IMG/VR virus record: IMGVR_UViG_3300025162_000016
Location: 304,759 to 368,758 of that record
DNA: 64,000 nt
Strand: one strand, 5' to 3'
Origin: a virus
The position numbers were made by a program, and so were the translations under genes. Each line of letters opens with the position of its first letter. The first letter of the stretch is position 1. Under the pieces are notes generated by a model. That model was not told where the DNA came from. It did no database searches and saw nothing but the letters and a program-made list of their open reading frames with translations. Below, in pieces: positions 1,852-15,150 of this stretch.

Positions 1852-1886
1852 TTGACAAAAACAAATAAATCGGTATAATTCTGATA
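1852..1886 (+). promoter_or_regulatory. Leaderless promoter
   Basis: TTGACA (1852-1857), 16 bp, TATAAT (1874-1879), then 7 bp to the ATG at 1887, so transcription should start at the start codon. Confidence 0.75.
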
Positions 1887-2150
1887 ATGAGAAATAAAAC
1901 ATTATATGCAGTGATACATCGTCACGAGTATGGAGCCGGATTTTATCTTGTTCGGTGTGCTCATGTTCCTAAGAAAGAAGAAGTTATTCAACATCTTGAT
2001 ATTGATATTGCTGATACGTTGGACGAAGAAGAAATAATTATCGAAGAAATTATTTCAAAAGAAGCGGTAGAAATCCCTGAACCGGATGGCACTGAGGGAC
2101 AAGACCGAAAGAGCTATACCGATACACAAGACCGTAAAAATTATTACTGA
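1887..2150 (+). CDS. Hypothetical small acidic protein
   Basis: 87 residues. The N-terminus (LYAVIHRHEYGAGFYLVR) looks like a beta hairpin and is followed by a run of acidic residues and a polar tail with a repeated QDRK(S/N)Y motif. No family recognised. The ATG lies 7 bp after a consensus -10 box, so the message is expected to be leaderless. Confidence 0.6.
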   Translation: MRNKTLYAVIHRHEYGAGFYLVRCAHVPKKEEVIQHLDIDIADTLDEEEIIIEEIISKEAVEIPEPDGTEGQDRKSYTDTQDRKNYY

Positions 2151-2155
2151 TTTCG

Positions 2156-2235
2156 CTTGACTTTTTTTGGTCAATCGGTATAGTGTTATCTGCTCTCTCT
2201 CGGTATAGTGCCGGGAGGGGCATTTTTTATTTATT
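2156..2235 (+). ncRNA. Possible very short transcript (promoter plus terminator)
   Basis: TTGACT (about 2158) and TATAGT (about 2180), 16 bp apart, are followed within 50 bp by a CTCTCTC/GGGAGGGG hairpin and T-rich tract, with no ORF between. Either an orphan promoter or a tiny RNA. Confidence 0.35.
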
Positions 2236-2245
2236 CACCGGCAAC

Positions 2246-2263
2246 AATTCTAAGGTTAGAGTT
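2246..2263. repeat. 18-bp palindrome copy
   Basis: Variant AATTCTAAGGTTAGAGTT followed by GATCAAC. Confidence 0.6.
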
Positions 2264-2294
2264 GATCAACTGTGGGGGGGGGATATGATTTCGT

Positions 2295-2360
2295 TTGACT
2301 TTTGCATGTTCTGGAATATGCAATAGTGAAGTGCTGGAACAGACCAGACACTATATCACT
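2295..2360 (+). ncRNA. Solitary CRISPR-like repeat with its own promoter
   Basis: A 36-nt unit at 2325-2360 starts AGTGAAGTGCTGGAAC and ends CTATATCACT. It matches the array repeats at 26-29 kb except for exchanged, still pairable end bases and a changed inner base. TTGACT (2295-2300) and TATGCA (2317-2322) lie directly upstream. No ORF follows. Best described as a solitary repeat unit likely to be transcribed. Confidence 0.6.
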
Positions 2361-2379
2361 AAAAAATGAAACTTTGTAG

Positions 2380-2440
2380 TTGATAATTTTGAATAAACCG
2401 GTATAATTTATTTAGTGAAGTGCTGGAACAGACCAGACAC
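2380..2440 (+). ncRNA. Truncated solitary CRISPR-like repeat with promoter
   Basis: TTGATA (2380-2385), 16 bp, TATAAT (2402-2407), then 6 bp to the repeat start at 2414. The repeat loses its 3' end after CCAGACAC (2440). The predicted transcription start coincides with the repeat start. Confidence 0.55.
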
Positions 2441-2469
2441 AATAAGACGTAAGACGAAACAAGTAATCA

Positions 2470-2497
2470 TTGACAAAATAAAAAATATCGGTATAGT
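2470..2497 (+). promoter_or_regulatory. Promoter for AT-hook gene
   Basis: TTGACA (2470-2475), 16 bp, TATAGT (2492-2497); 39-nt leader to the ATG at 2537. Confidence 0.7.
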
Positions 2498-2536
2498 TAG
2501 TAAAGTTAAGCGATTAAACAAATAAAACAATAAAAA

Positions 2537-2989
2537 ATGAAAAAACAAAATACGGAAGTAGTTGTTGTGACGGAAACGGAAACGGTAACGGCGACAGAAG
2601 TTAAGCGTGGGCGTGGGCGGCCCAGGTTTGAAATTAAGAAGCCGGAGACAAATACGTGGACAATGAATGATGTTAAGGCATTGAACCCTGATGTTTGTGC
2701 ATTGAGTTTATATCAGCATAAGAATAGGTGGATTGCGGAAAATTGGTGTGTGGATAGTGGGGAGCGAATTCCTACGGGCGGGGTGGGAAAGCCATTGACT
2801 GTGTTTATTGCGGTTGCGGCATTGCAACGGTCTAAGGCGGCAAAGAAGGCTGCAAAGACTCGTAAGATGAACAGCAAGCTTCCGGTGGCCCCTCCGGTGG
2901 ATATGGTTGCGGTTCCGGTGACTGATACGGTTGCGGTGACTGATGCGGTTCCGGTGACTGATGCGGTGGAGAATCTGGTGACGGTATAA
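2537..2989 (+). CDS. AT-hook protein with VPVTDAV tail repeats
   Basis: 150 residues. KRGRGRPRF at about residues 23-31 is a textbook AT-hook minor-groove binder. The middle (residues 40-100) is a Trp-containing small domain, followed by a Lys/Ala-rich basic stretch and a low-complexity tail of VPVTD(T/A)V repeats. Probably a DNA-binding or nucleoid-type phage protein. The hook is seen directly. Two other proteins in this region carry GRP hooks (5405-6046, and 7217-7032 on the minus strand). Confidence 0.6.
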   Translation: MKKQNTEVVVVTETETVTATEVKRGRGRPRFEIKKPETNTWTMNDVKALNPDVCALSLYQHKNRWIAENWCVDSGERIPTGGVGKPLTVFIAVAALQRSKAAKKAAKTRKMNSKLPVAPPVDMVAVPVTDTVAVTDAVPVTDAVENLVTV

Positions 2990-3040
2990 TGGTTTACAAT
3001 AAAGACGGCGAGAAAAGTAAAATATTCTTTCCGTCTTTTC

Positions 3041-3074
3041 TTGACTTTTTATATTATATTCATACACTATACCC
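3041..3074 (+). promoter_or_regulatory. Promoter for Gp88-like gene
   Basis: TTGACT about 16-18 bp before a weak -10 (CACTAT), which ends 4 bp before the ATG at 3075. Short-leader arrangement as in neighbouring genes. Confidence 0.5.
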
Positions 3075-3884
3075 ATGAATAAAACAAAATTAAGTTTCAC
3101 TCACGGCAATGCAAAGTTATCAAAAGACACTGCAATTCTTTCCCTTCCGGCAGGATATACATGTCCTTTTGCGAACGAGTGCCGGTCTTGTTCGGATAAA
3201 GTTACCGGCAAGATTAAAGATGGTCCACATACGCAATTCCGTTGTTATGCCACAACGGCAGAGTGTTTATTTCCTAACATACGGAGAAGTCGGTGGAATA
3301 ATTTTGAGCTTATTAAAAACGCTAAAACAACAATCGGTATGGCAAATTTGATTGAACAATCTTTGGAAGGGAAGAAAAAAATCAAATTGGTTAGATTTCA
3401 TCAAAGCGGCGATTTCTTTTCGCAAGCATATTTCGATGCTTGGCTTATGGTTGCTCAAAATCATTCTAATCTAATTTTCTATGGTTATACTAAGGCATTG
3501 CCTTATTGGGTAAAGCGATTAGAGGCAATTCCTGCTAATTTTAGGATTGTAGCCTCAAGGGGTGGGACGCATGACAATTTGATTGAAATGTTTGGGTTGC
3601 GGTCGGTGCGGGTTGTGTTATCTGAGCGAGAGGCACGCCGGAAATGGAAGCTTCAAATTGACCATGATGATTCGCATGTCTGGAATTATGACAAGGACTT
3701 TGCCATTGTCATACATGGCATCCAACCGGCGGGAACAAAGGCTAGTAAAGCATGGCAGAAAATTAAAACGCATGGCAAAGGTGGATATAAAGCCAAATAT
3801 TTTGGTGACAAGAAAGTTAAAAAGCAGAATAGTGCAGAAGGCTGGAAAGTTAAACGAGTTTTTGCCGATAAAATAGCGGCATAA
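3075..3884 (+). CDS. Gp88-like phage protein
   Basis: 269 residues. The N-terminus has GNAKLSKDTAILSLPAGYTCP, then a cysteine cluster (C..ANECRSC, later RCYA). The centre has VRFHQSGDFFSQAYFDAW and FYGYTKALPYW, matching phage proteins of the mycobacteriophage gene-88 type (Pfam Gp88). The conserved cysteines suggest a metal or Fe-S site, but the family has no established activity. Family assignment is from recalled motifs; the function is unknown. Confidence 0.65.
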   Translation: MNKTKLSFTHGNAKLSKDTAILSLPAGYTCPFANECRSCSDKVTGKIKDGPHTQFRCYATTAECLFPNIRRSRWNNFELIKNAKTTIGMANLIEQSLEGKKKIKLVRFHQSGDFFSQAYFDAWLMVAQNHSNLIFYGYTKALPYWVKRLEAIPANFRIVASRGGTHDNLIEMFGLRSVRVVLSEREARRKWKLQIDHDDSHVWNYDKDFAIVIHGIQPAGTKASKAWQKIKTHGKGGYKAKYFGDKKVKKQNSAEGWKVKRVFADKIAA

Positions 3885-3890
3885 AAAACA

Positions 3891-3930
3891 CTAAATACCG
3901 TTGACTTTAATCAAGTTAACGGTATTCTTT
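3891..3930 (+). terminator. Rho-independent terminator
   Basis: AATACCGTTGAC / AGTTAACGGTATT inverted repeat followed by CTTTTATTT, just after the Gp88-like gene. Confidence 0.7.
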
Positions 3931-3935
3931 TATTT

Positions 3936-4124
3936 ATGAGAACAATACTTGGTCCCGGTGCAAAGTGCCGGGGATATGTTAAAGAGACTGCTAATGGTAA
4001 GGAATTGCTTTCTTCTGGCGGTACCTTACTGGGATACTATAATGAAGATACTGATCAAACACTTGAGCCAGGGGGAAACTTGTATTCCTATGGTGATTGT
4101 CTTATCGAATTGCTTGAAGATTAA
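3936..4124 (+). CDS. Small beta-flower-like protein
   Basis: 62 residues, MRTILGPGAKCRGYV..., with repeated Gly-Tyr and Asn/Gly turns (GTLLGYYNEDTDQT, GGNLYSYGD). Short Gly-aromatic strands with Asp/Asn turns resemble the small 4-fold beta-flower proteins found in bacteria and phages. That comparison is inference. It stands directly after the terminator of the preceding gene. Confidence 0.5.
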   Translation: MRTILGPGAKCRGYVKETANGKELLSSGGTLLGYYNEDTDQTLEPGGNLYSYGDCLIELLED

Positions 4125-4134
4125 TGTTAACACT

Positions 4135-4452
4135 ATGAACATGAATAATAGAGTTACCCTACAGCGAACAATATTTACTAATTGGAACACCCAAAATCAG
4201 ACTTACGGATACCGTGCGTATGATGATCAAGGGCAAACGTACGGGAATTGTTTTTCTCTTTTGCAAATGAATTTGCCGGATGATCAATTCTTTAGATTGG
4301 TTTATTCGCAGTGTGATGAAATGGTGGCGGCAATGGTAGATTCCTGTTATGAGAATGCGCTTGGAATTGAAATTGATGGGGACGATAAATCGTATGAATG
4401 GGTGAAAGAAACACTTGCAAAAGAGACAGAAATCAGTAATATGACGGTATAA
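4135..4452 (+). CDS. Hypothetical protein
   Basis: 105 residues from the ATG at 4135 (a second ATG at 4141 is equally possible). A Tyr/Gln-rich start (NTQNQTYGYRAYDDQGQTYG) looks like beta strands, followed by a helical, acidic C-terminal half. No family recognised. The gene runs straight into the next one with a 13-bp gap, suggesting one operon. Confidence 0.55.
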   Translation: MNMNNRVTLQRTIFTNWNTQNQTYGYRAYDDQGQTYGNCFSLLQMNLPDDQFFRLVYSQCDEMVAAMVDSCYENALGIEIDGDDKSYEWVKETLAKETEISNMTV

Positions 4453-4465
4453 GAATAATAAAAAC

Positions 4466-4771
4466 ATGAAAATTACATTGAATCAAGCATATCGGTTATT
4501 GGAAGATTGTTCGGCGGTTATTTGGGCGGATTATTTTCTTACATTCCCAGCATTGCAAGATGAGGATAATGAGCCAAAAATGTTTTTGTCCTTAGACTCT
4601 ACGGATGAACACGGGAAAGTGTTTCTGGTGGAATTCTATCGACAAGATAATCAAGAAGTTAAAGCGATTGGGAATTCTTTATTTCTCACGGATACAACGG
4701 GTGAAGAAATTCAACTAACATTATTGCATGCAATGAACACGGAAATTTATTTGGATGGAAAACCGGATTAA
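4466..4771 (+). CDS. Hypothetical acidic protein
   Basis: 101 residues, overall acidic, predicted alpha/beta, with no motif I recognise. Separated by 13 bp from the upstream gene and likely co-transcribed. Followed by a hairpin terminator (4776-4813). Confidence 0.55.
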   Translation: MKITLNQAYRLLEDCSAVIWADYFLTFPALQDEDNEPKMFLSLDSTDEHGKVFLVEFYRQDNQEVKAIGNSLFLTDTTGEEIQLTLLHAMNTEIYLDGKPD

Positions 4772-4773
4772 TT

Positions 4774-4815
4774 AAATCTATTAGTTTCCCGTCTATAACA
4801 GGGCGGGGAACTAAG
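4774..4815 (+). terminator. Hairpin terminator
   Basis: AGTTTCCCG / CGGGGAACT inverted repeat at the end of the 4135-4771 pair. The U-tract is weak. Confidence 0.45.
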
Positions 4816-4817
4816 TC

Positions 4818-4851
4818 TTGACAAAACAGAAATGTAGTATATTATCCTAAT
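4818..4851 (+). promoter_or_regulatory. Leaderless promoter
   Basis: TTGACA (4818-4823), 16 bp, TATTAT (4840-4845), 6 bp to the ATG at 4852. Confidence 0.7.
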
Positions 4852-5064
4852 ATGATTATTAACAAAATTACCTATGGGTTTGTAGTTCAACAATGGGATA
4901 CAGAAAAAAAACAATGGGTTGGACAAGACTTTGTTGCCGGGGACGTGGTTGAATTTGAAGATGAAACGGGGGATATGATTGATGATGCGGAAATGGAAGA
5001 AATCGAGAGCAAGCCAGCATTATCATTTAAAATGGTTCAACCAGAAAACGAAGCAAAGGCTTGA
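4852..5064 (+). CDS. Hypothetical acidic protein
   Basis: 70 residues: a beta-rich start (YGFVVQQWDTEKKQWVGQDFVAGDVVEFED) and an acidic helix. Resembles small phage proteins of unknown role. Its stop codon overlaps the TTGACA of the next promoter (5061-5066). Confidence 0.55.
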   Translation: MIINKITYGFVVQQWDTEKKQWVGQDFVAGDVVEFEDETGDMIDDAEMEEIESKPALSFKMVQPENEAKA

Positions 5065-5088
5065 CAATTCCAACTAAAGCAGTATAAT
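5061..5088 (+). promoter_or_regulatory. Promoter upstream of solitary CRISPR repeats
   Basis: TTGACA (5061-5066), 16 bp, TATAAT (5083-5088). The next ORF is more than 300 bp away and has its own promoter, so this promoter reads only the solitary repeats at 5137-5361. Confidence 0.65.
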
Positions 5089-5100
5089 TTAAGTCGGTGG

Positions 5101-5172
5101 TTGCATGTTCTGGAATATGTGCTATATATGATAGACAGTGAAGTGCTGGAACAGACCAGTTACTATATCACT
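5101..5172 (+). ncRNA. Solitary CRISPR-like repeat with aligned promoter
   Basis: TTGCAT (5101-5106), 16 bp, TATATA (5123-5128), then 8 bp to a complete 36-nt repeat at 5137-5172 (AGTGAAGTGC ... TATATCACT). The predicted transcript begins at the first base of the repeat. Confidence 0.65.
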
Positions 5173-5210
5173 TTATGTTGTTATCTTTTTTAAATTTATC
5201 CCTTGTGAAT

Positions 5211-5228
5211 AAATCTAAGGTTAGAGTT
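5211..5228. repeat. 18-bp palindrome copy
   Basis: AAATCTAAGGTTAGAGTT between two solitary repeats. Confidence 0.6.
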
Positions 5229-5236
5229 AAAATAAC

Positions 5237-5309
5237 TTGCATGTTTCGGGGATAAGTGCTATATATGATAGACAGTGAAGTGCTGGAACAGACCAGTCAC
5301 TAAAACACT
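5237..5309 (+). ncRNA. Solitary CRISPR-like repeat with aligned promoter
   Basis: TTGCAT (5237-5242), 17 bp, TATATA (5260-5265), 8 bp to a repeat at 5274-5309 ending CACTAAAACACT. The upstream 35 bp duplicate those in front of the 5137 unit. Confidence 0.65.
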
Positions 5310-5334
5310 GGGAATATGTGCTACTGTATGCGAT

Positions 5335-5361
5335 AATGAAGTGCTGGAACAAACCGACATT
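5335..5361 (+). repeat. Degenerate solitary CRISPR-like repeat
   Basis: AATGAAGTGCTGGAACAAAC followed by CGACATT; truncated at the 3' end. Confidence 0.5.
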
Positions 5362-5369
5362 GAAAATAG

Positions 5370-5404
5370 TTGACTTTTGATGGTGTATCGGTATAATGAG
5401 CAAG
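5370..5404 (+). promoter_or_regulatory. Leaderless promoter
   Basis: TTGACT (5370-5375), 16 bp, TATAAT (5392-5397), 7 bp to the ATG at 5405. The earlier ATG at 5396 lies inside the -10 box and cannot be the start. Confidence 0.75.
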
Positions 5405-6046
5405 ATGAAACAAATTGAAGTTGAATTCAAAACTAATGCCAATGGCACCGGGATGCAATTTTTCCGGCAAATTAAAAAAGGTTTTACCCCTAAAGGTAAA
5501 GCTGTATACATATATGAACGTATTCATGCGATTGGAGATAAAGAAGGGGAAACATTTGGATTTGAAGTTATTGCGCCTTCGATAAAGAAGGCAGGAACGT
5601 ATTCGTTACCTGGTGGCAAATCAATTACGTATGCTGAGGATTTTGAGGAATATCCTGGGGCGTCTAAGTTTGGAATATCAGCCTGGTCGTATCCCGCTTA
5701 TCAAGCTGGCGGGGCACGATGGAAATTTGAACAGCTTACAAAAGAACTAATAGAAATTGAAGAAATCGAAGAAACTAATAATATGATTGAAAACGATAAT
5801 GTAGATACAAATGAAGTGCCGTCTAATGTTACTAAGTCGAGGGGACGGCCCAAGAATGATCGTCCGTTGCTAAGTATTCCGTCGGGGGAGTTTAGTACAA
5901 CGGAGCTATGTAAACTAAACAATACTGATTATTCTGTGGCGGCAGTGTTTTTGAGGGACTGTGAAGCGGCTGGGACGGTAAAGCGAACCCGTACCGAGAG
6001 GCGTAATGCTAAGGGGAAGGAAACTCAATTGTTTCAAGTTGTGTAA
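5405..6046 (+). CDS. AT-hook protein with winged-helix-like C-terminus
   Basis: 213 residues from ATG 5405, chosen because the upstream in-frame ATG (5396) overlaps the -10 box. Residues 1-110 form an alpha/beta region of unknown type. A linker leads to SRGRPKNDRP (AT-hook, about residues 143-152). The last 55 residues (FSTTELCKLNNTDYSVAAVF, then GTVKRTRTERR) look like a small helix-turn-helix. DNA binding is inferred from the hook and the basic C-terminus. Target unknown. Confidence 0.6.
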   Translation: MKQIEVEFKTNANGTGMQFFRQIKKGFTPKGKAVYIYERIHAIGDKEGETFGFEVIAPSIKKAGTYSLPGGKSITYAEDFEEYPGASKFGISAWSYPAYQAGGARWKFEQLTKELIEIEEIEETNNMIENDNVDTNEVPSNVTKSRGRPKNDRPLLSIPSGEFSTTELCKLNNTDYSVAAVFLRDCEAAGTVKRTRTERRNAKGKETQLFQVV

Positions 6047-6048
6047 AT

Positions 6049-6372
6049 ATGAAATCGAATAAGCCTATCCCTGAAACATATACGAACCGTGTAGCTCAAT
6101 TTAACAAGACTGAGCAACGATTGCCTAATGTTCCTGTTAAAGGCAAGGAGCCGGGTTCTACGCTCACGGATACGACCAAAGAAAACCCTTATATGATTGC
6201 TCGTCTTAAAGTTCTTAATGACTATAAAGAGGGTAGGCGTATTGAAGTGTTGGCAATGGAAAGAGATAATAGAATTGATCACCGGCATTATGAGGAATTC
6301 GTTACCGATGTTCTTAGGGTAGCCGGGGATATTCCTTCTCTGGCTATCCGAAATCGAATCAAAGGAATCTAA
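6049..6372 (+). CDS. Hypothetical protein
   Basis: 107 residues starting 2 bp after the previous stop, hence co-transcribed. Polar, basic N-terminus and helical C-terminal half (MERDNRIDHRHYEEFVTDVLRVAG...). Unrecognised. Ends in a short CTAAT microrepeat (6364-6392) and a terminator. Confidence 0.5.
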   Translation: MKSNKPIPETYTNRVAQFNKTEQRLPNVPVKGKEPGSTLTDTTKENPYMIARLKVLNDYKEGRRIEVLAMERDNRIDHRHYEEFVTDVLRVAGDIPSLAIRNRIKGI

Positions 6373-6390
6373 TCTAATCTAATCTAATCT

Positions 6391-6424
6391 ACAAATCCCC
6401 TGTCAAGTGACGGGGGATTTTTTA
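6391..6424 (+). terminator. Rho-independent terminator
   Basis: AATCCCCTGTCA / TGACGGGGGATT stem and TTTTT. Confidence 0.75.
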
Positions 6425-6431
6425 TATATTT

Positions 6432-6460
6432 AGTGAATTACTGGAACAGACCAGTCACTA
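6432..6460 (+). repeat. Solitary CRISPR-like repeat (variant)
   Basis: AGTGAATTACTGGAACAGAC then CAGTCACTA. The inner stem is now AGT.ACTGG / CCAGTCACT, a better-paired version of the array repeat. Confidence 0.55.
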
Positions 6461-6462
6461 TC

Positions 6463-6480
6463 AACTCTAAGATTAGAATT
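6463..6480. repeat. 18-bp palindrome copy
   Basis: AACTCTAAGATTAGAATT, degenerate. Confidence 0.45.
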
Positions 6481-6509
6481 AAAACGAATTGCATTTTTTT
6501 GAAATTTCT

Positions 6510-6545
6510 AGTGAATTACTGGAACAGACCAGTCACTAAAACACT
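6510..6545 (+). repeat. Solitary CRISPR-like repeat
   Basis: 36-nt unit AGTGAATTACTGG...CACTAAAACACT. Confidence 0.6.
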
Positions 6546-6588
6546 ACCGGAGAAGGAGTAATAATTTTTTATCACCCTTCTCCGGCAT
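6546..6588. terminator. Bidirectional hairpin terminator
   Basis: CCGGAGAAGG / CCTTCTCCGG inverted repeat with a TTTTTT run in the loop side, between convergent genes. Confidence 0.5.
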
Positions 6589-6594
6589 ATATGT

Positions 6595-6630
6595 AGTGAC
6601 GTGCTGGGATATATCAGTCACTAAAACACT
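6595..6630 (+). repeat. Solitary CRISPR-like repeat (diverged)
   Basis: AGTGACGTGCTGGGATATAT then CAGTCACTAAAACACT. The loop has changed but both outer arms are kept. Confidence 0.5.
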
Positions 6631-6886
6631 CAGACTGTACGGTAAAGGTATCAGCACTTTCCCAACTAAAATGATCTACGATTGCTTTACCGGCAGCATC
6701 ATCTTGATCAAATGCCAATTTGGGTTCAAAATCCGCTTGTTCCGCTTTATTCATAGCAAATTTATAATGATACCCATTATCGTAATCATCTTCGGTACAG
6801 ATTAATTTACAAAAGTAAAAGTCTGGTTCTCCATTACTGTTAATCCCGGCTACCATCATCTTTAAGTCAAGCATAAAGTCAAGCAT
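6614..6886 (-). CDS. Hypothetical protein
   Basis: 90 residues (MLDFMLDLKMMVAGINSNGEP...), acidic, alpha/beta, with a Tyr/Asp-rich centre. Its stop lies inside the 6595-6630 repeat. A minus-strand promoter (TTGACT 6957-6952, TATAAT 6935-6930) supports expression. No family recognised. Confidence 0.55.
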   Translation of the reverse strand: MLDFMLDLKMMVAGINSNGEPDFYFCKLICTEDDYDNGYHYKFAMNKAEQADFEPKLAFDQDDAAGKAIVDHFSWESADTFTVQSECFSD

Positions 6887-6929
6887 ATTTTTGTTTTTAA
6901 TCGGTTAATTGTTTTTTTACTGTGATATG

Positions 6930-6957: not shown

Positions 6958-6976
6958 CTAATAAATGTATATATTT

Positions 6977-7497: not shown

Positions 7498-7531
7498 TTG
7501 ACTTTTTTTATGGTATCGGTATGATGGCGAC
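7498..7531 (+). promoter_or_regulatory. Leaderless promoter
   Basis: TTGACT (7498-7503), 16 bp, TATGAT (7520-7525), 6 bp to the ATG at 7532. Confidence 0.7.
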
Positions 7532-7858
7532 ATGATTAAAAACAATAAAAACCTTATCACGGTGGCCTTCAATCCAACTTGTTCGGTTGGACAAGATGGT
7601 GATTGGGCCGAGGGCAATAGCAAATTGGCGGCGATAGAACAGGCTTACGAAAACATATCGGGGACTCATGATTCAACCGAATCGCTTGCTAAGCTAAGCT
7701 ATGAAATTGTTAATCTTTGGGAATTACCGGATGTAAGTTATAATGCCTTTTCCCGTTTGCATGCACAATGGCGTCTTGCTCGTCATAATGGATGGACGAG
7801 CGATGAGGCCGATAAAATAATGATGGAAGAACTCGTTCGCCGGGAAGAAGAGGGTTGA
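7532..7858 (+). CDS. Hypothetical protein
   Basis: 108 residues, mixed alpha/beta, with a helical Glu/Arg-rich end (ADKIMMEELVRREEEG). Its TGA stop forms part of the TTGACT box of the next promoter (7855-7860). No family recognised. Confidence 0.6.
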   Translation: MIKNNKNLITVAFNPTCSVGQDGDWAEGNSKLAAIEQAYENISGTHDSTESLAKLSYEIVNLWELPDVSYNAFSRLHAQWRLARHNGWTSDEADKIMMEELVRREEEG

Positions 7859-7889
7859 CTTTGTTAAAACAATTCATATACTTTGAAAT
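7855..7889 (+). promoter_or_regulatory. Leaderless promoter
   Basis: TTGACT (7855-7860), 16 bp, TATACT (7877-7882), 7 bp to the ATG at 7890. Confidence 0.75.
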
Positions 7890-8159
7890 ATGAAATTATT
7901 CACTGATATTGATGTTACGCCACACGGGGCAATTGTGGGTGCCGGTTCACTTTCGGTTAATCGATCGGAATTGATTACGGACATGCTACCTTGGCAAGAA
8001 CGGTGTTTACAGGAAACCGCTACTGGCTACGGTGCTAAATTGACTACAAGTCTTAAAATTAATTTTAATGGCAAGCTGTTTAGGATTTATAGCACTTGCT
8101 ATGGCAATGCCGGTTCATGTTGGTTCATTGCAAAGAAACGAAAAATATTTGTGTATTAA
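7890..8159 (+). CDS. Hypothetical protein
   Basis: 89 residues (MKLFTDIDVTPHGAIVGAGS...), predominantly beta, ending CWFIAKKRKIFVY. Unrecognised. Leaderless by promoter geometry. Confidence 0.55.
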   Translation: MKLFTDIDVTPHGAIVGAGSLSVNRSELITDMLPWQERCLQETATGYGAKLTTSLKINFNGKLFRIYSTCYGNAGSCWFIAKKRKIFVY

Positions 8160-8161
8160 TG

Positions 8162-8196
8162 TTGACTTTGTTAAAACAGTTCATATACTTTGAAAT
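8162..8196 (+). promoter_or_regulatory. Leaderless promoter (near copy of 7855-7889)
   Basis: TTGACT (8162-8167), 16 bp, TATACT (8184-8189), 7 bp to the ATG at 8197. All but one base match the preceding promoter, so the cassette was duplicated. Confidence 0.75.
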
Positions 8197-8370
8197 ATGA
8201 AATTCAACGTTAAGTACCGATCCAGCACTTCTTTTTTAGCACCAAAGGTTTACCGTGTTATAGTTGAAGCTGCCGACATGGAAACTTGTAAGACAGCAAT
8301 AAATTCATGGAGAGTGCGTGAACTTCGACTTGGTAATAAATTTACAATAATTTCCATCACGGAGACTTGA
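8197..8370 (+). CDS. Hypothetical 57-residue protein
   Basis: Begins MKFNVKYRSSTSFLAPKVYR and ends FTIISITET. A short beta-alpha-beta-like fold is plausible. The strong private promoter ending 7 bp before the ATG supports it as a gene despite its size. Its stop again overlaps a TTGACT box (8366-8371). Confidence 0.6.
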   Translation: MKFNVKYRSSTSFLAPKVYRVIVEAADMETCKTAINSWRVRELRLGNKFTIISITET

Positions 8371-8844: not shown

Positions 8845-8978
8845 AACTCTAACCTTAGAGTTGATCGGCAAGTGTGGGAGAGACTGTGAGACTGTGAGAG
8901 TGGGAGAGAAATTGCCGGTGGCTAAAATAGAGTAAAATAAGTCTTGCAATACCGGGAATAATCCGTAGAATGTTGACA
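8845..8978 (+). promoter_or_regulatory. Palindrome plus leaderless promoter cassette
   Basis: 18-bp palindrome AACTCTAACCTTAGAGTT (8845-8862) with GATCG, then a GCCGGTGGCTAAAAT box, TTGCAA (8944-8949), 16 bp, TAGAAT (8966-8971) and 7 bp to the ATG at 8979. First of a series of such cassettes. Confidence 0.75.
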
Positions 8979-9377
8979 ATGAAACGAATAACAATCAATC
9001 TTATACGTGCCGATGGCGAAGTCTTTTGGAAGGGTCAAACCGAATTCGGGAGCGTTGTCTTGTGTAAGTCCCCTATTGACAACATATTTCCTATTGCGTT
9101 GAATCTTAATTCATTGCAAATGGTTATATCTTCAAATGAACAGCCGGGGTTTTCTTTGATAAAACTATGTCAATCGGGTGGTTATTGGGCCTGGAACCTA
9201 TCCGGTATGGAACAACAACCGACTCTCTTAAACGGTCGCCTCTATTTCCCTTCAGCGCACTATTTTGGATTTGCGGAATCAACTATAGATGCGATTTTAC
9301 GAAGACTAATGGGCAAAGGAAAGAATTATTCTCTTTCCGGGAATCGTAAAGTGTGGATAAAATTCAATACTATTTGA
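8979..9377 (+). CDS. Hypothetical protein
   Basis: 132 residues from ATG 8979, chosen because it sits 7 bp after TAGAAT; the ATG at 8970 overlaps that box. Beta-rich, with aromatic clusters (GGYWAWNLSGMEQQ). The lysine-rich C-terminus ends VWIKFNTI. Unknown family. The stop lies next to the next TTGACT promoter. Confidence 0.55.
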   Translation: MKRITINLIRADGEVFWKGQTEFGSVVLCKSPIDNIFPIALNLNSLQMVISSNEQPGFSLIKLCQSGGYWAWNLSGMEQQPTLLNGRLYFPSAHYFGFAESTIDAILRRLMGKGKNYSLSGNRKVWIKFNTI

Positions 9378-9402
9378 CTTCCCGGCAATAACTCATATAC
9401 TA
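9375..9402 (+). promoter_or_regulatory. Promoter
   Basis: TTGACT, 16 bp, TATACT; about 40-nt leader before ATG 9441. Confidence 0.6.
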
Positions 9403-9440
9403 CTCATAGTTAATTAAACAAATAAAGCTAAACAAATATT

Positions 9441-10013
9441 ATGGGCTGGACATTTACAAATAAAGGTTCACAGACAACCAAAGAATTCTTCGAGCGAGCA
9501 TTCAACTATGACAAGCCGGACGAGGGCCGAAGCGGTAATATCATCCGGTTTTCTTCTACGTGGACAACCGCTTATATTGCGTATGAAGTTAAAATTCCGG
9601 CAACGGCGGAATCGCCAGCCAAAAGAGATGTTATCGCAATTGTATGTTTGCTTCGCCATGTTCCTAATGCTAAAGACGGCTACACTTTTGGCTATAAGGA
9701 CATGACGGAAAATATGGGGCCATACGAAAGCAAGTGCCCGAAAACAATTTTGAATTTGCTTACCCCAACAACGAGCGAGTATGCTATTAATTGGCGTAAG
9801 CGGTGCTGGGATAGAATTAACAGGAAAGCTAATGCGCCTAAAGTGAAAGCCGGTGACTTGGTTAAATTTACTGAAATTATTTCTTTCCAACATGGAATAA
9901 AAACGGATTTCCTGACATGGGTTAAAGGTAGTACCTTTCGATATGGGTATAGCCTATGTCGAATTCCCAATTGGAAAGAACGGGAATATATTAACCTTGG
10001 CGCAATTGTTTAG
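9441..10013 (+). CDS. Hypothetical protein, phage-type conserved
   Basis: 190 residues. GWTFTNKGSQTTKEFFERAF, a central DVIAIVCLLRHVPN and a KTILNLLTPTTS..A..WRKRCW stretch resemble a recurrent phage or plasmid protein of unknown role, but I cannot name the family. The stop codon TAG is supplied by the solitary repeat that begins at 10012. Confidence 0.55.
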   Translation: MGWTFTNKGSQTTKEFFERAFNYDKPDEGRSGNIIRFSSTWTTAYIAYEVKIPATAESPAKRDVIAIVCLLRHVPNAKDGYTFGYKDMTENMGPYESKCPKTILNLLTPTTSEYAINWRKRCWDRINRKANAPKVKAGDLVKFTEIISFQHGIKTDFLTWVKGSTFRYGYSLCRIPNWKEREYINLGAIV

Positions 10014-10047: not shown

Positions 10048-10074
10048 CTATATCACTAGTGGATTTCACCAATT

Positions 10075-10123
10075 TCCCAGTCGATTTCACCAATCGACTG
10101 GGAGACATTTTTCTCCTTTTTTT
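10075..10123 (+). terminator. Rho-independent terminator
   Basis: CCCAGTCGAT / ATCGACTGGG and T-tract; copy of 8744-8792. Confidence 0.8.
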
Positions 10124-10174
10124 CACCGCTCATTCAATATTCCGGTTTTTCAACAAATAGCAAGCAATTTTATT

Positions 10175-10298
10175 AACTCTAACCTTAGAGTTGATCGGCT
10201 ACTGTGAGAGACTGAGAGCGGGGGGGAAAGTTGTCGGTGCTGGAAAATAGAGTAAAATAAGTCTTGCAATACCGGGAATAATCCGTAGAATGTTGACA
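10175..10298 (+). promoter_or_regulatory. Palindrome plus leaderless promoter cassette
   Basis: Palindrome 10175-10192; TTGCAA 10264-10269; TAGAAT 10286-10291; ATG 10299. Near-duplicate of the 8845 cassette. Confidence 0.75.
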
Positions 10299-10637
10299 AT
10301 GAAAAAACAAATACTTCCTCGCACTGGAAATTATTACGGTATGTCCATTGTCCCGACGTATGGGACGGGCACAACTACATGGGTCGAAGGAGAAATGATG
10401 AACACTGATTACGGTCAATTCCGTAGAAGGGGGATAGTGATTCATGCGGGCACACAGGAACTTGTAATGGTAAGATTAGATGTTCCTGATACTTTTTTCA
10501 GTATCCCAGCCACCACAAGAGCAGAACATGGATATGTCACCACGAATGCGAAGGGTGAATTTGAATTCCGCCCGCATACTACCCAAACCGTTTCCCCAGC
10601 ACAATTTCGGAAAGATACTAAACACGCATACAAATAA
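10299..10637 (+). CDS. Hypothetical protein
   Basis: 112 residues from ATG 10299 (the upstream ATG at 10290 lies in the -10 box). Beta-rich, Gly/Thr-rich first half (GMSIVPTYGTGTTTWVEGEM), basic end. Not recognised. Confidence 0.55.
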   Translation: MKKQILPRTGNYYGMSIVPTYGTGTTTWVEGEMMNTDYGQFRRRGIVIHAGTQELVMVRLDVPDTFFSIPATTRAEHGYVTTNAKGEFEFRPHTTQTVSPAQFRKDTKHAYK

Positions 10638-10640
10638 TAT

Positions 10641-10675
10641 TTGACTTTCCAACAATAACCTATAGAATATCAACA
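10641..10675 (+). promoter_or_regulatory. Leaderless promoter
   Basis: TTGACT (10641-10646), 16 bp, TAGAAT (10663-10668), 7 bp to ATG 10676. Confidence 0.75.
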
Positions 10676-10843
10676 ATGAAACAAACATTTGAACAATGGC
10701 TGGATAGAGTAGATGCTGAAATTCAAGCGATAGCGGGAGTGTCTTTACTCGATCTTCCCGATTGTTGCTATCAAGATTGGTACAACGATGAAATATCAGT
10801 GAAAAGGGCAGCGAAAAAAGCGATTCGTACTGCCCAAGAATAA
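10676..10843 (+). CDS. Hypothetical 55-residue helical protein
   Basis: MKQTFEQWLDRVDAEIQAIA at the start and a basic helix (SVKRAAKKAIRTAQE) at the end, with a Cys pair in the centre. Supported by its own leaderless promoter and by the terminator that follows (10860-10905). Confidence 0.6.
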   Translation: MKQTFEQWLDRVDAEIQAIAGVSLLDLPDCCYQDWYNDEISVKRAAKKAIRTAQE

Positions 10844-10857
10844 AACCTAGATAAAAC

Positions 10858-10905
10858 AAATTTCCCGCTTGATTTCACCAGTCAAGTGGGAAACTCTTTT
10901 TTCCT
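10858..10905 (+). terminator. Rho-independent terminator
   Basis: TTTCCCGCTTGA / TCAAGTGGGAAA stem and TTTTTT. Confidence 0.75.
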
Positions 10906-10953
10906 CGTGTTCCAATCATTTCGGTTTTTCTCAAAAAAGCAAGCAATTTTATT

Positions 10954-11057
10954 AACTCTAACCTTAGAGTTGATCGGCTACTGTGAGAGAGAAATTGCCG
11001 GTGGCTAAAATAGAGTAAAATAAGTCTTGCAATACCGGGAATAATCCGTAGAATGTC
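10954..11057 (+). promoter_or_regulatory. Palindrome plus promoter cassette
   Basis: Palindrome 10954-10971, GCCGGTGGCTAAAAT, TTGCAA and TAGAAT as in the 8845 cassette, but with about a 20-nt leader to ATG 11075. Confidence 0.7.
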
Positions 11058-11074
11058 CATAGTTAAATAAATAT

Positions 11075-11266
11075 ATGCCATACGACGATAACTTCGGTAA
11101 TTGGGAACTGGACGGCGAGGATAGAGACGAAACAATGTCGTTCTATCGCCACTGCCAGAATAATTCAGTGGAGAAAGTGTGCTCCATTTGCGGTCGTCAT
11201 GTAATGTTGATGCCCCAATACGACAAGTGTGATGCGTGTTGCCGTCGCATTGAAAACGGTTATTAG
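11075..11266 (+). CDS. Small zinc-ribbon protein
   Basis: 63 residues. An acidic N-terminus is followed by VCSICGRHVMLMPQYDKCDACC, two CxxC pairs about 15 residues apart, a zinc ribbon. Role unknown. Confidence 0.6.
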   Translation: MPYDDNFGNWELDGEDRDETMSFYRHCQNNSVEKVCSICGRHVMLMPQYDKCDACCRRIENGY

Positions 11267-11284
11267 TCTTAATCGCCCACAAAT

Positions 11285-11313
11285 CATGCTCCCTTCGGGG
11301 AGCCTTTTTTTTG
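11285..11313 (+). terminator. Rho-independent terminator
   Basis: GCTCCCTTCGGGGAGC hairpin followed by eight T. Confidence 0.85.
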
Positions 11314-11344
11314 TACTTTTCACCGAACAATCAGCAATTTTATT

Positions 11345-11515
11345 AACTCTAACCTTAGAGTTGATCACTCGTCCTGGTACAGTATAATTGCCGATATATC
11401 GGCGATTAATTGGCGTATGGCATCATCTATGCTTAGTTGCCGGGGGAAAGCCGGAAAGAGTAAAATAAGTTGCGAATATTCTTGCAAATTAACCGGCAAC
11501 CCGTAAGATTAGGAC
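11345..11515 (+). promoter_or_regulatory. Palindrome plus leaderless promoter cassette
   Basis: Palindrome 11345-11362; TTGCAA 11482-11487, 16 bp, TAAGAT 11504-11509, 6 bp to ATG 11516. Confidence 0.7.
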
Positions 11516-12142
11516 ATGCTAAATAAAACTACTGATACGGGAGCGGTGCTAGACTTCACTGCCCTTGTCAGCTTACTGGACGGTAACAAGTCGGCCCGTT
11601 TCATTTCTTTGCTCTATCGGACAAAGGAAAGCGGGGAAGTGGCTCGTCATACGCTGCTGTTAAACGTCAAGCGGGAGCGGTGCTTGAAAGTTGACCTGGC
11701 TAGCCTTACTGCCTTGCGCCCTAGCCTTACGGGCATTGAAGCGCAAGCCTGTGATGAATTGGTGGCCAGCATTACGGAGTCTTTGACAACGGGCAGCAAC
11801 AAGCTTTATACAAAGAAGGGTTATTACACTGCCGAGGGTAACGGTAACGTCCAGGTGTCGGTAAAGGACATTGCCTACGTGCGAGGGTATTCCATCGGCA
11901 AAGAGGTTATTACGGAAGGCACCTATAAGAAAGTTAAGTCTAGTGACAAGACTATCGCCAAAAACAAGCTTCGCAAGGGGCTTAAGAATACCAGGGTTCG
12001 GGAATTCGTTATCACGCCAGCAAATTTCATTATGGCTCGTCATAATGGCAAATCCATTGAAATTAATGCACTGCGAACCGATTTCAATTCTTTGGCGGAA
12101 TTGCCCCCAATAACAATCGCCAGTCCTGCCGTTGCAGTGTAA
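11516..12142 (+). CDS. Hypothetical basic protein
   Basis: 208 residues, higher G+C than its neighbours. Begins MLNKTTDTGAVLDFTALVS. The centre is beta-rich, the C-terminal third basic (KSSDKTIAKNKLRKGLKN). Phage-type protein of unknown function. Terminator follows. Confidence 0.6.
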   Translation: MLNKTTDTGAVLDFTALVSLLDGNKSARFISLLYRTKESGEVARHTLLLNVKRERCLKVDLASLTALRPSLTGIEAQACDELVASITESLTTGSNKLYTKKGYYTAEGNGNVQVSVKDIAYVRGYSIGKEVITEGTYKKVKSSDKTIAKNKLRKGLKNTRVREFVITPANFIMARHNGKSIEINALRTDFNSLAELPPITIASPAVAV

Positions 12143-12151
12143 GACGGGTTA

Positions 12152-12195
12152 ACAGGGAGCGTTCCAGCATTGGGCTGGACGCTCTTTTTATTTGC
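12152..12195 (+). terminator. Rho-independent terminator
   Basis: GAGCGTTCCAGC / GCTGGACGCTC stem and TTTTTATTT. Confidence 0.8.
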
Positions 12196-12297
12196 TTTAT
12201 TTCGGTAACGTTATCGGAATTAGACCAGGATAGGTACACGTACAATGTACCGAAAACCGTACGAAAAGTCAATCGAAATTTCAATTTATTTGAAATT

Positions 12298-12413
12298 AAA
12301 TCTAAGGTTAGAGTTGATCGACAAGAGCGAGCGAGAAATTGCCGGTGAAATAGGTTAAAATAAATTGTAGAAAGTATTTGACTTCAAACCGGAAAACCGG
12401 TATCGTGTTGACA
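12298..12413 (+). promoter_or_regulatory. Palindrome plus leaderless promoter cassette
   Basis: Palindrome 12298-12315; TTGACT 12378-12383, 17 bp, TATCGT 12401-12406, 7 bp to ATG 12414. Confidence 0.7.
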
Positions 12414-12704
12414 ATGAAATCAATACCTATGGAACAGATAACGATAGAAGACAGGAATCTCCGTATCGGTGATGTCGTGCGACTCCTATGTACTGGAGAA
12501 GTAGTAGATACTGGATTTAATCAGCTTGTCGTCATCAACAAGACGGAAGAAGCAATTACCTTTTTTCGTCCTTACGTGAGCTTAGGGGACTTTACATATA
12601 CTGGAGGGGTAATACCCTATATCGGAATTGAGCGGTTCGACGCTCCGTTCCGGGGAGCCGTTTACATACTCCTGGATAATATCTATCGGGAAAAAGCAAT
12701 TTAA
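12414..12704 (+). CDS. Hypothetical protein
   Basis: 96 residues from ATG 12414. RIGDVVRLLCTGEVVDTGFNQLVV and later beta strands suggest a small barrel. Unrecognised. The first codons are duplicated at 12873. Confidence 0.55.
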   Translation: MKSIPMEQITIEDRNLRIGDVVRLLCTGEVVDTGFNQLVVINKTEEAITFFRPYVSLGDFTYTGGVIPYIGIERFDAPFRGAVYILLDNIYREKAI

Positions 12705-12707
12705 TCA

Positions 12708-12748
12708 TTGGAGCCGCTCATAAAGATGGGCGGCTCCAATAGTTTATT
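12708..12748 (+). terminator. Hairpin terminator
   Basis: ATTGGAGCCGC / GCGGCTCCAAT stem, short T-rich tail. Confidence 0.65.
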
Positions 12749-12755
12749 TGAAATT

Positions 12756-12920
12756 AACTCTAAGGTTAGAGTTGATCGACAAGAGCGAGCGAGAAATTGC
12801 CGGTGAAATAGGTTAAAATAAATTGTAGGAAGTATTTGACTTTAAACCGGAAAACCGGTATCGTGTTGACAATGAAATCAATACCTACGGAACAGAAAAC
12901 GATAGTAGACATTTTATAAT
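12756..12920 (+). promoter_or_regulatory. Duplicated cassette with 15-codon leader ORF
   Basis: Palindrome 12756-12773 and the same TTGACT/TATCGT promoter as 12378-12406, followed by ATG at about 12873 opening MKSIPTEQKTIVDIL and a stop. This copies the start of the 12414 gene. The real next gene starts at 12939. Confidence 0.6.
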
Positions 12921-12938
12921 AATTAACTAAATACATAT

Positions 12939-13409
12939 ATGGGATACAACACGCAGTTTACTGGTCAGTTCAATCTAAACAAACCTCTTTCCGAAAAGGA
13001 TAAAGAGTTTCTAACCACGCTTTCGGAGACACGCCGGATGGCTCGTAAGGTTGATGCAAAGTATGGTATTGAAGGGGAATTCTATGTAGATGGGGCCGGG
13101 ATATTTGGTCAGGATAAGGATGAAACCATTCTTGACAATAACTGCCCTCCCAAAACTCAACCTGGATATTGGTGCCAATGGGTGCCAAACGATGATGGAA
13201 CGGCTATTATCTGGGATTGCAATGAGAAGTTCTATGAATACATTGAATGGATTAACTATTTGATTAAGAATCTTATTGAACCTCGGGGATATTCACTTAC
13301 GGGAGATGTTGAATGGCAGGGAGATGAACCGGATGATTTTGGGATTATCTCTATCAAAGACAACACGGTGCGGATTGGTCAAGGTGTGCGGAGCTATATC
13401 TACAGTTGA
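12939..13409 (+). CDS. Conserved hypothetical protein (GYNTxFxGxF family)
   Basis: 156 residues. MGYNTQFTGQFNLNKPLSEK, GEFYVDGAG, PPKTQPGYWCQWVPNDDGTA, WDCNEKFYEYIEWINYLI and GYSLTGDVEWQGDE match a widely distributed, uncharacterised family found in bacteria and phages. The pattern is complete, so it is probably intact. Function unknown. Confidence 0.65.
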   Translation: MGYNTQFTGQFNLNKPLSEKDKEFLTTLSETRRMARKVDAKYGIEGEFYVDGAGIFGQDKDETILDNNCPPKTQPGYWCQWVPNDDGTAIIWDCNEKFYEYIEWINYLIKNLIEPRGYSLTGDVEWQGDEPDDFGIISIKDNTVRIGQGVRSYIYS

Positions 13410-13412
13410 TCC

Positions 13413-13447
13413 TTTTTAGTCTGCCGCCGAAAGTTTGACGGCAGACT
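13413..13447 (+). terminator. Hairpin terminator
   Basis: AGTCTGCCG / CGGCAGACT stem overlapping the next promoter. Confidence 0.5.
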
Positions 13448-13640
13448 TGACATTTTAGAATAATTCTGATAGTATCAGAAAAGAGGAATTTGATCTGATT
13501 TCAGATTCTGACTCTTTTCCCAACGAATTTACACTAGTAATTGTGGAAATTAACGTAGTTTAACGGCCCACTTTTTCACGGTCAGGATAGTTTGTCGGCC
13601 CACTTTTTCACACCCACCCTAAAAACGTGGGCTTTTTTTG
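13447..13640 (+). ncRNA. Candidate small non-coding RNA
   Basis: TTGACA (13447-13452), 17 bp, TAGTAT (13470-13475) and a rho-independent terminator (CCCAC/GTGGG then GCTTTTTTT, 13612-13639) bound about 160 nt without an ORF. The transcript would contain an AAAAGAG/CTCTTTT hairpin and the direct repeat CGGCCCACTTTTTCAC twice. Confidence 0.5.
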
Positions 13641-13655
13641 TACATCAATTCCATT

Positions 13656-13757
13656 AACTCTAACCTTAGAGTTGATCGCTTATGCTGACAACGCCGGTGT
13701 CTAAAATATTTTCAAAAGGTGTTTGACTTCAAACCGGGAAAACGGTATCGTGTTGAC
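13656..13757 (+). promoter_or_regulatory. Palindrome plus leaderless promoter cassette
   Basis: Palindrome 13656-13673; TTGACT 13723-13728, 17 bp, TATCGT 13746-13751, 6 bp to ATG 13758. Confidence 0.7.
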
Positions 13758-13964
13758 ATGAACAAAATCTACGGAAGTCGAACAGAAAAATTGCAACGGT
13801 ATCAAGCAGCCGTCAAGACAATGACGCAAGAACAAGTCGATGCCTGTGCCTGGTTGTTCGGTGGGTATGGTTCTGCCTGGACCCCAGCGAATTGTGCGGC
13901 TCGGTATCAAGAAATTCTAGATCAAGAAATTTCAGAACGAGGGGAAGATAAAACGGGAAATTAA
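13758..13964 (+). CDS. Hypothetical protein
   Basis: 68 residues starting MNKIYGSRTEKLQRYQAAVK, helical, with WLFGGYGSAWTP in the centre. Start fixed by the promoter; an earlier ATG at 13719 lies upstream of the -35. Unknown. Confidence 0.55.
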   Translation: MNKIYGSRTEKLQRYQAAVKTMTQEQVDACAWLFGGYGSAWTPANCAARYQEILDQEISERGEDKTGN

Positions 13965-13973
13965 AAATAATTC

Positions 13974-14008
13974 TTGCTTTTTTCAATATAACCAGTAGAA
14001 TAACAACC
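13974..14008 (+). promoter_or_regulatory. Leaderless promoter
   Basis: TTGCTT (13974-13979), 16 bp, TAGAAT (13996-14001), 7 bp to ATG 14009. Confidence 0.7.
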
Positions 14009-14446
14009 ATGAAACTTACATTAACAGTATCGGAGTTAACCGCAATCGTCCGGCACCATTACGCTTTACCGGAACTAACAATCGAAATCGAGGGACTGAA
14101 CGCTATACCCGTTTCCCATGCTATCACGGCAGACAATTTGATTGCCGACCTGCACCACCGCCCATACCCGGCCACGAACGTCTTCAATCCCGCCATCACG
14201 GCAGACAATTTGATTGCCGATCTGCACCACACTAATTGCTTTGATGTTAACAACAATATTGCGCTCGATCATAAGATCGCCGCAATAAAAATCTTGCGGG
14301 AAGTGGTTTGTAACTCCGCCCCCAATACGCAATGCGGACTGGCACAGGCTAAGTGGGCGATAGAGGACTGGCATAGGTTCATTAAATACGTCCGCCAGAA
14401 TGGATTTCCCAAAATGGGAACAGATGACAATAAGAATTGGAGTTAG
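14009..14446 (+). CDS. Hypothetical protein with internal duplication
   Basis: 145 residues. ITADNLIADLHH occurs twice (about residues 39-50 and 63-74), encoded by a near-perfect DNA duplication, so one copy is recent. The C-terminal part (KIAAIKILREVV..., QAKWAIEDWHRFI) resembles a helical ribosomal-L7/L12-like or phage cap fold, only weakly. Unknown function. Confidence 0.55.
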   Translation: MKLTLTVSELTAIVRHHYALPELTIEIEGLNAIPVSHAITADNLIADLHHRPYPATNVFNPAITADNLIADLHHTNCFDVNNNIALDHKIAAIKILREVVCNSAPNTQCGLAQAKWAIEDWHRFIKYVRQNGFPKMGTDDNKNWS

Positions 14447-14455
14447 TACATCTTG

Positions 14456-14531
14456 AATACACGGAGCACTTGGCGGTGCTCTTTGTCCTTCCCTCGCTTG
14501 ACTGGTAATCTTGCGAGGGACTTTTTTTGTT
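14456..14531 (+). terminator. Tandem hairpin terminator
   Basis: GAGCAC/GTGCTC hairpin, then CCCTCGC / GCGAGGG followed by TTTTTTT. Confidence 0.7.
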
Positions 14532-14639
14532 GATTTCACCAGAAAAAAACTAAGTTTCACCAGATAGTTTTTTCCTCCTCCTCCTTCCTCCACTTTCACC
14601 ATTCTTCCGGTATTTCACCGAAAAGCAAGCAAATTTATT

Positions 14640-14751
14640 AACTCTAACCTTAGAGTTGATCGCTTATGCTGACAACGCCGGTGTCTAAAATAATTTGAAT
14701 TATTTTGATATTCCAATTGACATTCAAATACTTTCTGATACTCTCTTGAAC
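14640..14751 (+). promoter_or_regulatory. Palindrome plus leaderless promoter cassette
   Basis: Palindrome 14640-14657; TTGACA 14717-14722, 16 bp, TACTCT 14739-14744, 7 bp to ATG 14752. Confidence 0.7.
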
Positions 14752-14991
14752 ATGAACATAAACACAGTCCGAATCGCACGTAAATTAAATAAAATCAGTG
14801 TCGCAACTTCTGCCCGCCTTATGCGAAGGCTGGGAAGGGTCAACCCCAAAGCAAATAATTGGGAAGCTTTTTGTGCCTTGCGGGCATCTATCATGCGGGA
14901 AGTTAAACCTCAAATTCAAGCCGCAAGGGATGCCGAGGAATGGATGGAATCACGGCACCGCACGACAAAGCGCCGGTACATAGACGCATAA
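14752..14991 (+). CDS. Hypothetical basic helical protein
   Basis: 79 residues from ATG 14752: MNINTVRIARKLNKISVATS, Arg-rich throughout, ending RHRTTKRRYIDA. Possibly nucleic-acid binding by charge. No family. Confidence 0.5.
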   Translation: MNINTVRIARKLNKISVATSARLMRRLGRVNPKANNWEAFCALRASIMREVKPQIQAARDAEEWMESRHRTTKRRYIDA

Positions 14992-14999
14992 GCCACCCA

Positions 15000-15035
15000 A
15001 AACAGTGCTCCGCAAGTGCGGGGCCTTTTTTTTGT
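15000..15035 (+). terminator. Rho-independent terminator
   Basis: GCTCCGCAAGTGCGGGGC hairpin then eight T. Confidence 0.75.
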
Positions 15036-15049
15036 ACATCAATTCCATT

Positions 15050-15150
15050 AACTCTAATCTTAGAATTAATCGCCCTCCTGGCGAAGCCGGTGTCTAAAAT
15101 AATTGAAATTATCTCTTGCAATTCATGTCATAATTAGTATATTGTTAAAC
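15050..15150 (+). promoter_or_regulatory. Palindrome (degenerate) plus leaderless promoter cassette
   Basis: AACTCTAATCTTAGAATT at 15050-15067; TTGCAA 15116-15121, 16 bp, TATATT 15138-15143, 7 bp to ATG 15151. Confidence 0.65.

Follow-up and report, generated by a model that had tools for sequence, protein, structure and literature searches.

We analyzed a 64,000-nucleotide stretch of DNA, here called the window, which comprises bases 304,759-368,758 of the 368,758-base virus record IMGVR_UViG_3300025162_000016. The early genes of this large, uncultivated T4-like phage are, with good confidence, leaderless: the -10 box of a sigma-70-type promoter ends 6 or 7 bp before the AUG start codon, which would place the start of the RNA at the AUG itself. 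An earlier note on this DNA had listed 16 ATGs preceded by promoters at this distance, and all of these coordinates hold. Each site consists of TTGAC or TTGC, a spacer of 16 or 17 bp, TAnnnT, a gap of 6 or 7 bp, and ATG. An automatic search recovered 12 of the 16 sites, and fixing the gap at 6 or 7 resolved those at 14009, 14752, 15151 and 31639 (genes are designated by the position of their start codon). Beyond the listed sites we found three more, which precede the genes at 3075 and 3936 and a 15-codon micro-open reading frame at 12872.

All of these promoter-AUG units lie on the plus strand. Written as -35 box, spacer, -10 box, gap and start codon, those listed previously are found at 1852-1889 (TTGACA-16-TATAAT-7-ATG, opening an 87-amino-acid open reading frame (ORF) at 1887), 4818-4854 (TTGACA-16-TATTAT-6-ATG), 5370-5407 (TTGACT-16-TATAAT-7-ATG; 213 amino acids), 7498-7534 (TTGACT-16-TATGAT-6-ATG), 7855-7892 (TTGACT-16-TATACT-7-ATG) and its near-copy at 8162-8199 (TTGACT-16-TATACT-7-ATG), 8944-8981 (TTGCAA-16-TAGAAT-7-ATG), 10264-10301 (TTGCAA-16-TAGAAT-7-ATG, the same cassette as at 8944 before a different protein), 10641-10678 (TTGACT-16-TAGAAT-7-ATG), 11482-11518 (TTGCAA-16-TAAGAT-6-ATG; 208 amino acids), 12378-12416 (TTGACT-17-TATCGT-7-ATG), 13723-13760 (TTGACT-17-TATCGT-6-ATG), 13974-14011 (TTGCTT-16-TAGAAT-7-ATG), 14717-14754 (TTGACA-16-TACTCT-7-ATG), 15116-15153 (TTGCAA-16-TATATT-7-ATG) and 31604-31641 (TTGACT-17-TAGTAT-6-ATG). 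The newly added units are those at 3041-3077 (TTGACT-16-TACACT-6-ATG, before the GP88 gene at 3075-3884), 3901-3938 (TTGACT-16-TATTCT-7-ATG; 62-amino-acid ORF at 3936) and 12836-12874 (TTGACT-17-TATCGT-7-ATG). The last of these opens the micro-ORF, which lies upstream of the gene at 12939 and can be read either as a decayed duplicate or as a leader peptide.

Misplaced start codons are not a satisfactory source of this arrangement. When the GP88 protein is aligned with two cyanophage homologues, the conserved block lies 2-8 residues past the start, so that the start codon of the 3075 gene is fixed; given this homology and the lack of any upstream in-frame start, misannotation is ruled out there. 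For the genes at 5405, 8979, 10299, 12414, 13758, 14752, 15151 and 31639 we judge it an unlikely cause, and the in-frame codons ahead of them are located inside the promoter, farther upstream, or between promoter and ATG in the 6-7 nt gap. Genome compaction was likewise rejected, since non-coding stretches of about 280-350 nt precede several of the AUG-adjacent promoters. A dispersed palindrome, AACTCTAACCTTAGAGTT, is found upstream of many early promoters (at 1-350 and at many early intergenic sites), and a tandem repeat, TTTCACCAATTTATTTTTATAAAA, occupies 1-240; both are possible regulator sites or mobile elements.

The arrangement occurs far more often than expected by chance. The pattern TTGACN{17,18}TANNNTN{5,7}ATG has 35 matches in the 368,758-base contig and 1 match for the reversed control. 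When -35/-10 pairs with at most 3 mismatches are scored, the ATGs that open an ORF number 19 at a gap of 6, 18 at a gap of 7 and about 5 at other gaps. The genome outside the window was sampled as eight separate 20 kb stretches, and over 224 kb we counted all triplets that follow TTGAC..TAnnnT at a gap of 6 or 7. ATG was seen 22 times (3.0 expected), GTG 3 times (1.4 expected) and TTG not at all (3.4 expected), and for 19 of these 22 ATGs the frame stays open for at least 35 codons. At shifted gaps ATG shows no excess over the expected 3.0 (2 at gaps of 0/1, none at 12/13 and 2 at 30/31). A preference for AUG is a prediction of leaderless initiation, and AUG is indeed favored over GUG and UUG here. 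A Pribnow-type box is also present above chance, its first T about 10 bp ahead of the start codon.

We also looked for Shine-Dalgarno (SD) motifs. Across 239 genes, these motifs are no more frequent than in a control window at a shifted position; at most, GGAG and AGGA are slightly in excess (6 versus 3) before closely spaced genes. When a single automatic test was applied to three phages, SD-like motifs were found before 0% of the early genes here, 33% of the genes of the Thermus phage phiYS40 and 53% of those of T4, while TAnnnT at a gap of 5-8 was found before 35%, 24% and 5%, respectively. Since phiYS40, for which leaderless mRNAs are reported, scores positive, the test recovers a known case.

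The same promoter-AUG pattern recurs in other phages. The matches number 25 (0 in the control) in a near-identical 84 kb contig, 58 (3 in the control) in G007, a 354 kb record whose major capsid protein (MCP) is 73% identical, and 25 (0 in the control) in G026, an 80 kb record whose MCP is 61% identical. G002 and G003 are contigs that overlap and have most of their sites in common; each has 18 matches (0 in the controls), and the AUG-adjacent promoter signal precedes many of their genes, on either strand. In a 20 kb stretch of G007 the full signal precedes 27 of 48 genes; some of the gaps between -10 and ATG in that record are 9-11, which implies leaders of a few nucleotides. The GP88 gene is 63% identical between our phage and G002/G003 and is leaderless in both, with promoter sequences that differ. 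Smaller excesses were observed in the MCP relatives G006, G019, G020 and G031, and many other MCP relatives, as well as the cultured ones, have no excess. Upstream regions of the MCP genes themselves are operon-internal, and no promoter was found in them.

The fixed spacing, the preference for AUG, the lack of SD motifs above background and the recurrence in divergent phages together make leaderless transcription the best reading. In the mechanism that we propose, the TTGAC and TAtaaT boxes would be read by the RNA polymerase of the host carrying its main sigma factor, and a search of the contig for a phage sigma-70 region 2 or RNA polymerase beta domain found neither, with the controls detected. 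Transcription beginning 7 or 8 nt beyond the -10 box would then have its +1 on the A of the AUG, or within 1-2 nt of it, and a 70S ribosome would bind the 5'-terminal AUG without SD contact. The region is presumed to be early and its 5' ends are predicted ones; the host, for its part, would routinely translate leaderless, SD-free mRNA.

Several observations weigh against this reading or limit its reach. In the automatic test the full signal precedes only 12 of the 34 called genes of the phage's own early region, and the remaining genes there are leadered or operon-internal. The use that the earlier note called uniform is systematic, at 16 sites plus three more, and not universal: within 1-16.5 kb, about 8 genes that have a promoter show a distance of 20-58 nt from the -10 box to the ATG. 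Not every unit is independent of the others, some being recent copies, and common promoter cassettes link 8979 with 10299, 7890 with 8197, and 12414 with 12872 and 13758. Furthermore, our gene calls are home-made, the 7.1 kb terminal repeat of the record is counted twice in whole-sample figures, and both sigma-70 recognition and leaderless translation in the host are things that we infer.

Outside the leaderless class, genes either carry leaders of about 20-60 nt that are A-rich and SD-less, or they come after, or overlap with, a gene upstream. Such leaders precede the genes at 775, 2537, 8474, 9441, 11075 and 15665, and those at 6886 and 7217 on the minus strand. Among promoter-bearing genes of the first 16.5 kb, the gap between -10 and ATG is bimodal, being 6-7 or at least 20 and never 8-19. 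A single promoter cassette precedes the genes at 8979 and 10299, whose proteins are unrelated; before the gene at 11075 that cassette has a 20-nt leader. A long array of small genes coding for QVxSQVxxQ-type repeats, also lacking SD motifs, lies at 32365-45450; consecutive genes in it often share exactly 8 nt, the start of one overlapping the stop of the one before (ATGAATAA), which suggests reinitiation.

The alternative that survives best, unlikely as it is, holds that the phage reprograms the ribosomes of its host in favor of leaderless mRNAs, either with an initiation factor or ribosomal protein of its own or through an altered IF2/IF3 ratio. It has a precedent in phiYS40 (PMC3594737). The tmRNA and tRNA genes carried by our phage indicate that it does intervene in translation, and a cultured MCP relative, Microcystis phage Mel-JY01, has an annotated bS21. 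The earlier note had suggested ribosomes modified by the phage, and this part of its interpretation finds no support: a search of the contig detected its controls and found no IF1, IF3 or bS21 gene, although a sub-threshold or unknown factor could escape such a search, and the absence of phage sigma-70 region 2 and RNA polymerase beta domains also counts against reprogramming. In addition, the earliest genes would need to be translated before any phage factor exists. The lack of phage IF1, IF3 and bS21 makes an SD-independent host more likely than a modified ribosome, and a host adapted to leaderless messages, the other suggestion of that note, is plausible.

It is considerably less probable that the AUG-adjacent -10 boxes are minor or decoy sites, the true starts lying upstream and the mRNAs being leadered. 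Promoter matches by themselves do not prove use, and the eight or so genes of the same region with 20-58 nt leaders show that leadered mRNAs have a place there. Decoys would nevertheless leave without cause both the enrichment of AUG at an exact spacing with open frames behind it and the conservation of that spacing between divergent phages. Slighter still is the probability that TAnnnT is an A/U-rich element acting in translation instead of a promoter box; the sequence before all starts is A/T-rich, but TTGAC stands 16-17 bp upstream, a distance typical of sigma-70, and does so in divergent phages and on either strand. An origin in chance, given the AT-rich genome, or in pattern-picking can be dismissed almost entirely: weak -10 matches are numerous in such sequence, yet the reversed-pattern controls (35 versus 1, 58 versus 3, 25 versus 0, 18 versus 0), the shifted gaps and the enrichment of AUG reject it.

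Leaderless initiation at sigma-70 promoters remains our preferred reading, and a second AUG-adjacent element was found in addition to these promoters. Expectation-maximization motif finding on genes outside the window returned nATATTTAT, mostly 4-9 nt before the ATG. TAYTTATA ends 3 or 4 nt before the ATG in 9 of 260 genes of this phage (0.05 expected per position) and 4 nt before it in 43 of 626 distinct genes of more distant relatives (0.15 expected), and at 3-7 nt before the ATG it recurs across the MCP clade. Two examples in the window, both on the plus strand and putatively late-like, are TACTTATA at 57093-57107, which stands 4 nt before the ATG of a 166-amino-acid gene, and TATTTATA at 20671-20686, 5 nt before that of a 320-amino-acid gene. 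Those genes behind TAYTTATA that can be named are transposases, and the others have no assigned function. The element may be a late-type promoter, read by a sigma factor suited to it, that gives leaderless or near-leaderless mRNA. No enrichment of the T4 late box, TATAAATA, is seen upstream of the genes here, and a search of six records with the RM378 sigma as query, made without a positive control, returned nothing of the gp55-type late sigma. We gave no weight to the exclusion of SD motifs behind TAYTTATA (0 of 111 versus 138 of 754), since the SD window is taken up by the element itself. A wider picture can be offered tentatively, as one that may or may not hold: in a T4-like jumbo lineage, and in at least one group that shares with it only GP88 and DUF932-type genes, host-type and late-like genes would both be leaderless, with the TAYTTATA-N3-7-ATG class in the T4-like lineage, SD sequences largely dispensed with, and host ribosomes that are mainly SD-free.

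Leaderless phage messages are usually isolated cases, such as lambda cI, or make up a share of the genes, as in phiYS40. That such messages exist is already known, and the present phages are an extreme, clade-wide variant. What is new is that the early genes make no use of SD sequences over background, that consensus sigma-70 promoters are fused to the AUG, that the arrangement is spread over divergent uncultivated phages, and that a second AUG-adjacent element accompanies it. The phage clade appears to rely on leaderless initiation with no detectable use of SD sequences in early genes, an indication that its bacterial hosts belong to a lineage with predominantly SD-independent translation. 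These units also offer natural leaderless modules, with promoter and AUG within 40 bp, and start codons in such phages may be misplaced by gene finders whose scoring includes SD motifs.

Most middle and late mRNAs of phiYS40 are reported to be leaderless (Sevostyanova et al. 2007, reviewed in PMC3594737), and an altered IF2/IF3 ratio has been proposed for this phage, with more IF2 and less IF3 in the host during infection. Like our phage, phiYS40 is a large tailed phage with an AUG-adjacent -10-like box (24% of genes) and annotated UvsX-like recombinase and DnaB-like helicase. Unlike our phage, it keeps SD signals (33% of genes), and its leaderless genes are middle and late ones, whereas the promoters described here lie in a region that is host-type and probably early. 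Among cellular genomes, Actinobacteria and Deinococcus-Thermus commonly have leaderless genes (PMC3160421; PMC12340547). In Deinococcus-Thermus, expression from a "-10 region adjacent to ORF" is raised by a -35 element 17 bp upstream (PMC12340547). Both this system and the TA-led genes of Zheng et al. 2011 (PMC3160421) resemble ours in having a Pribnow-like box about 10 bp before the start, from which leaderless mRNAs are deduced; they differ in being cellular genomes in which SD-led genes are also present, whereas we describe a phage lineage with SD-less early genes and a consensus -35.

The gp23-type MCP, UvsX and a gp41/DnaB-type helicase are all present in our phage and place it among the T4-like phages, and the Straboviridae and Kyanoviridae share these three proteins. 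T4 itself is SD-led (53%) and lacks the leaderless signal, which was not seen in the cyanophages either, including those with GP88 homologues; T4 uses the late box TATAAATA, whereas TAYTTATA is enriched here. The closest named relatives by MCP, at 51-53% identity, are Mel-JY01, the Flavobacterium immuto phages (Immutovirus) and the 484 kb metagenomic phage LR756508, which are also among the closest by helicase but have only 0-1 pattern matches per whole genome. Matches to GP88 and DUF932 proteins come from cyanophages and actinophages, all below 45% identity, and do not pinpoint the host; a search for a host clue with TnpB against a collection of genome contigs gave only a 29% Prevotella match.

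The record opens with the same 7,102 bases that close the window (56899-64000). This repeat is a direct terminal repeat or a circular overlap, and the identity of the ends indicates a unit genome of about 361.7 kb that is probably complete. A phage-encoded tmRNA lies at 20136-20529 (Rfam RF00023, 93.8 bits); it was missed by ARAGORN and has no match among phages or plasmids. The tRNA genes lie at 56001-56071, at 13292-13609 of L009 and at 2137-4184 of L016, and one of them, for Met(CAT), has an anticodon stem without initiator-type G-C pairs. At least three CRISPR-like arrays are present, at 26816-29151 of the window and at 9143-9611 and 297366-298343 (minus strand) of the genome. Their repeat is 36 nt long (GGTGAAGTGCTGGAACAGACCAGTTACTATATCACC), the spacers are mostly 34-40 nt and unique with some duplicated, and single degenerate copies of the repeat are scattered between early genes. 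Three TnpB/Cas12f-like proteins are encoded at 18519-19664, 24108-25283 and 48243-49493, the second directly upstream of the CRISPR-like arrays. A papain-family protease gene at 57639-59357 is split by an intein with an HNH endonuclease domain, and a non-coding poly-G run of 29 bases lies at 16295-16323, where strand composition changes.

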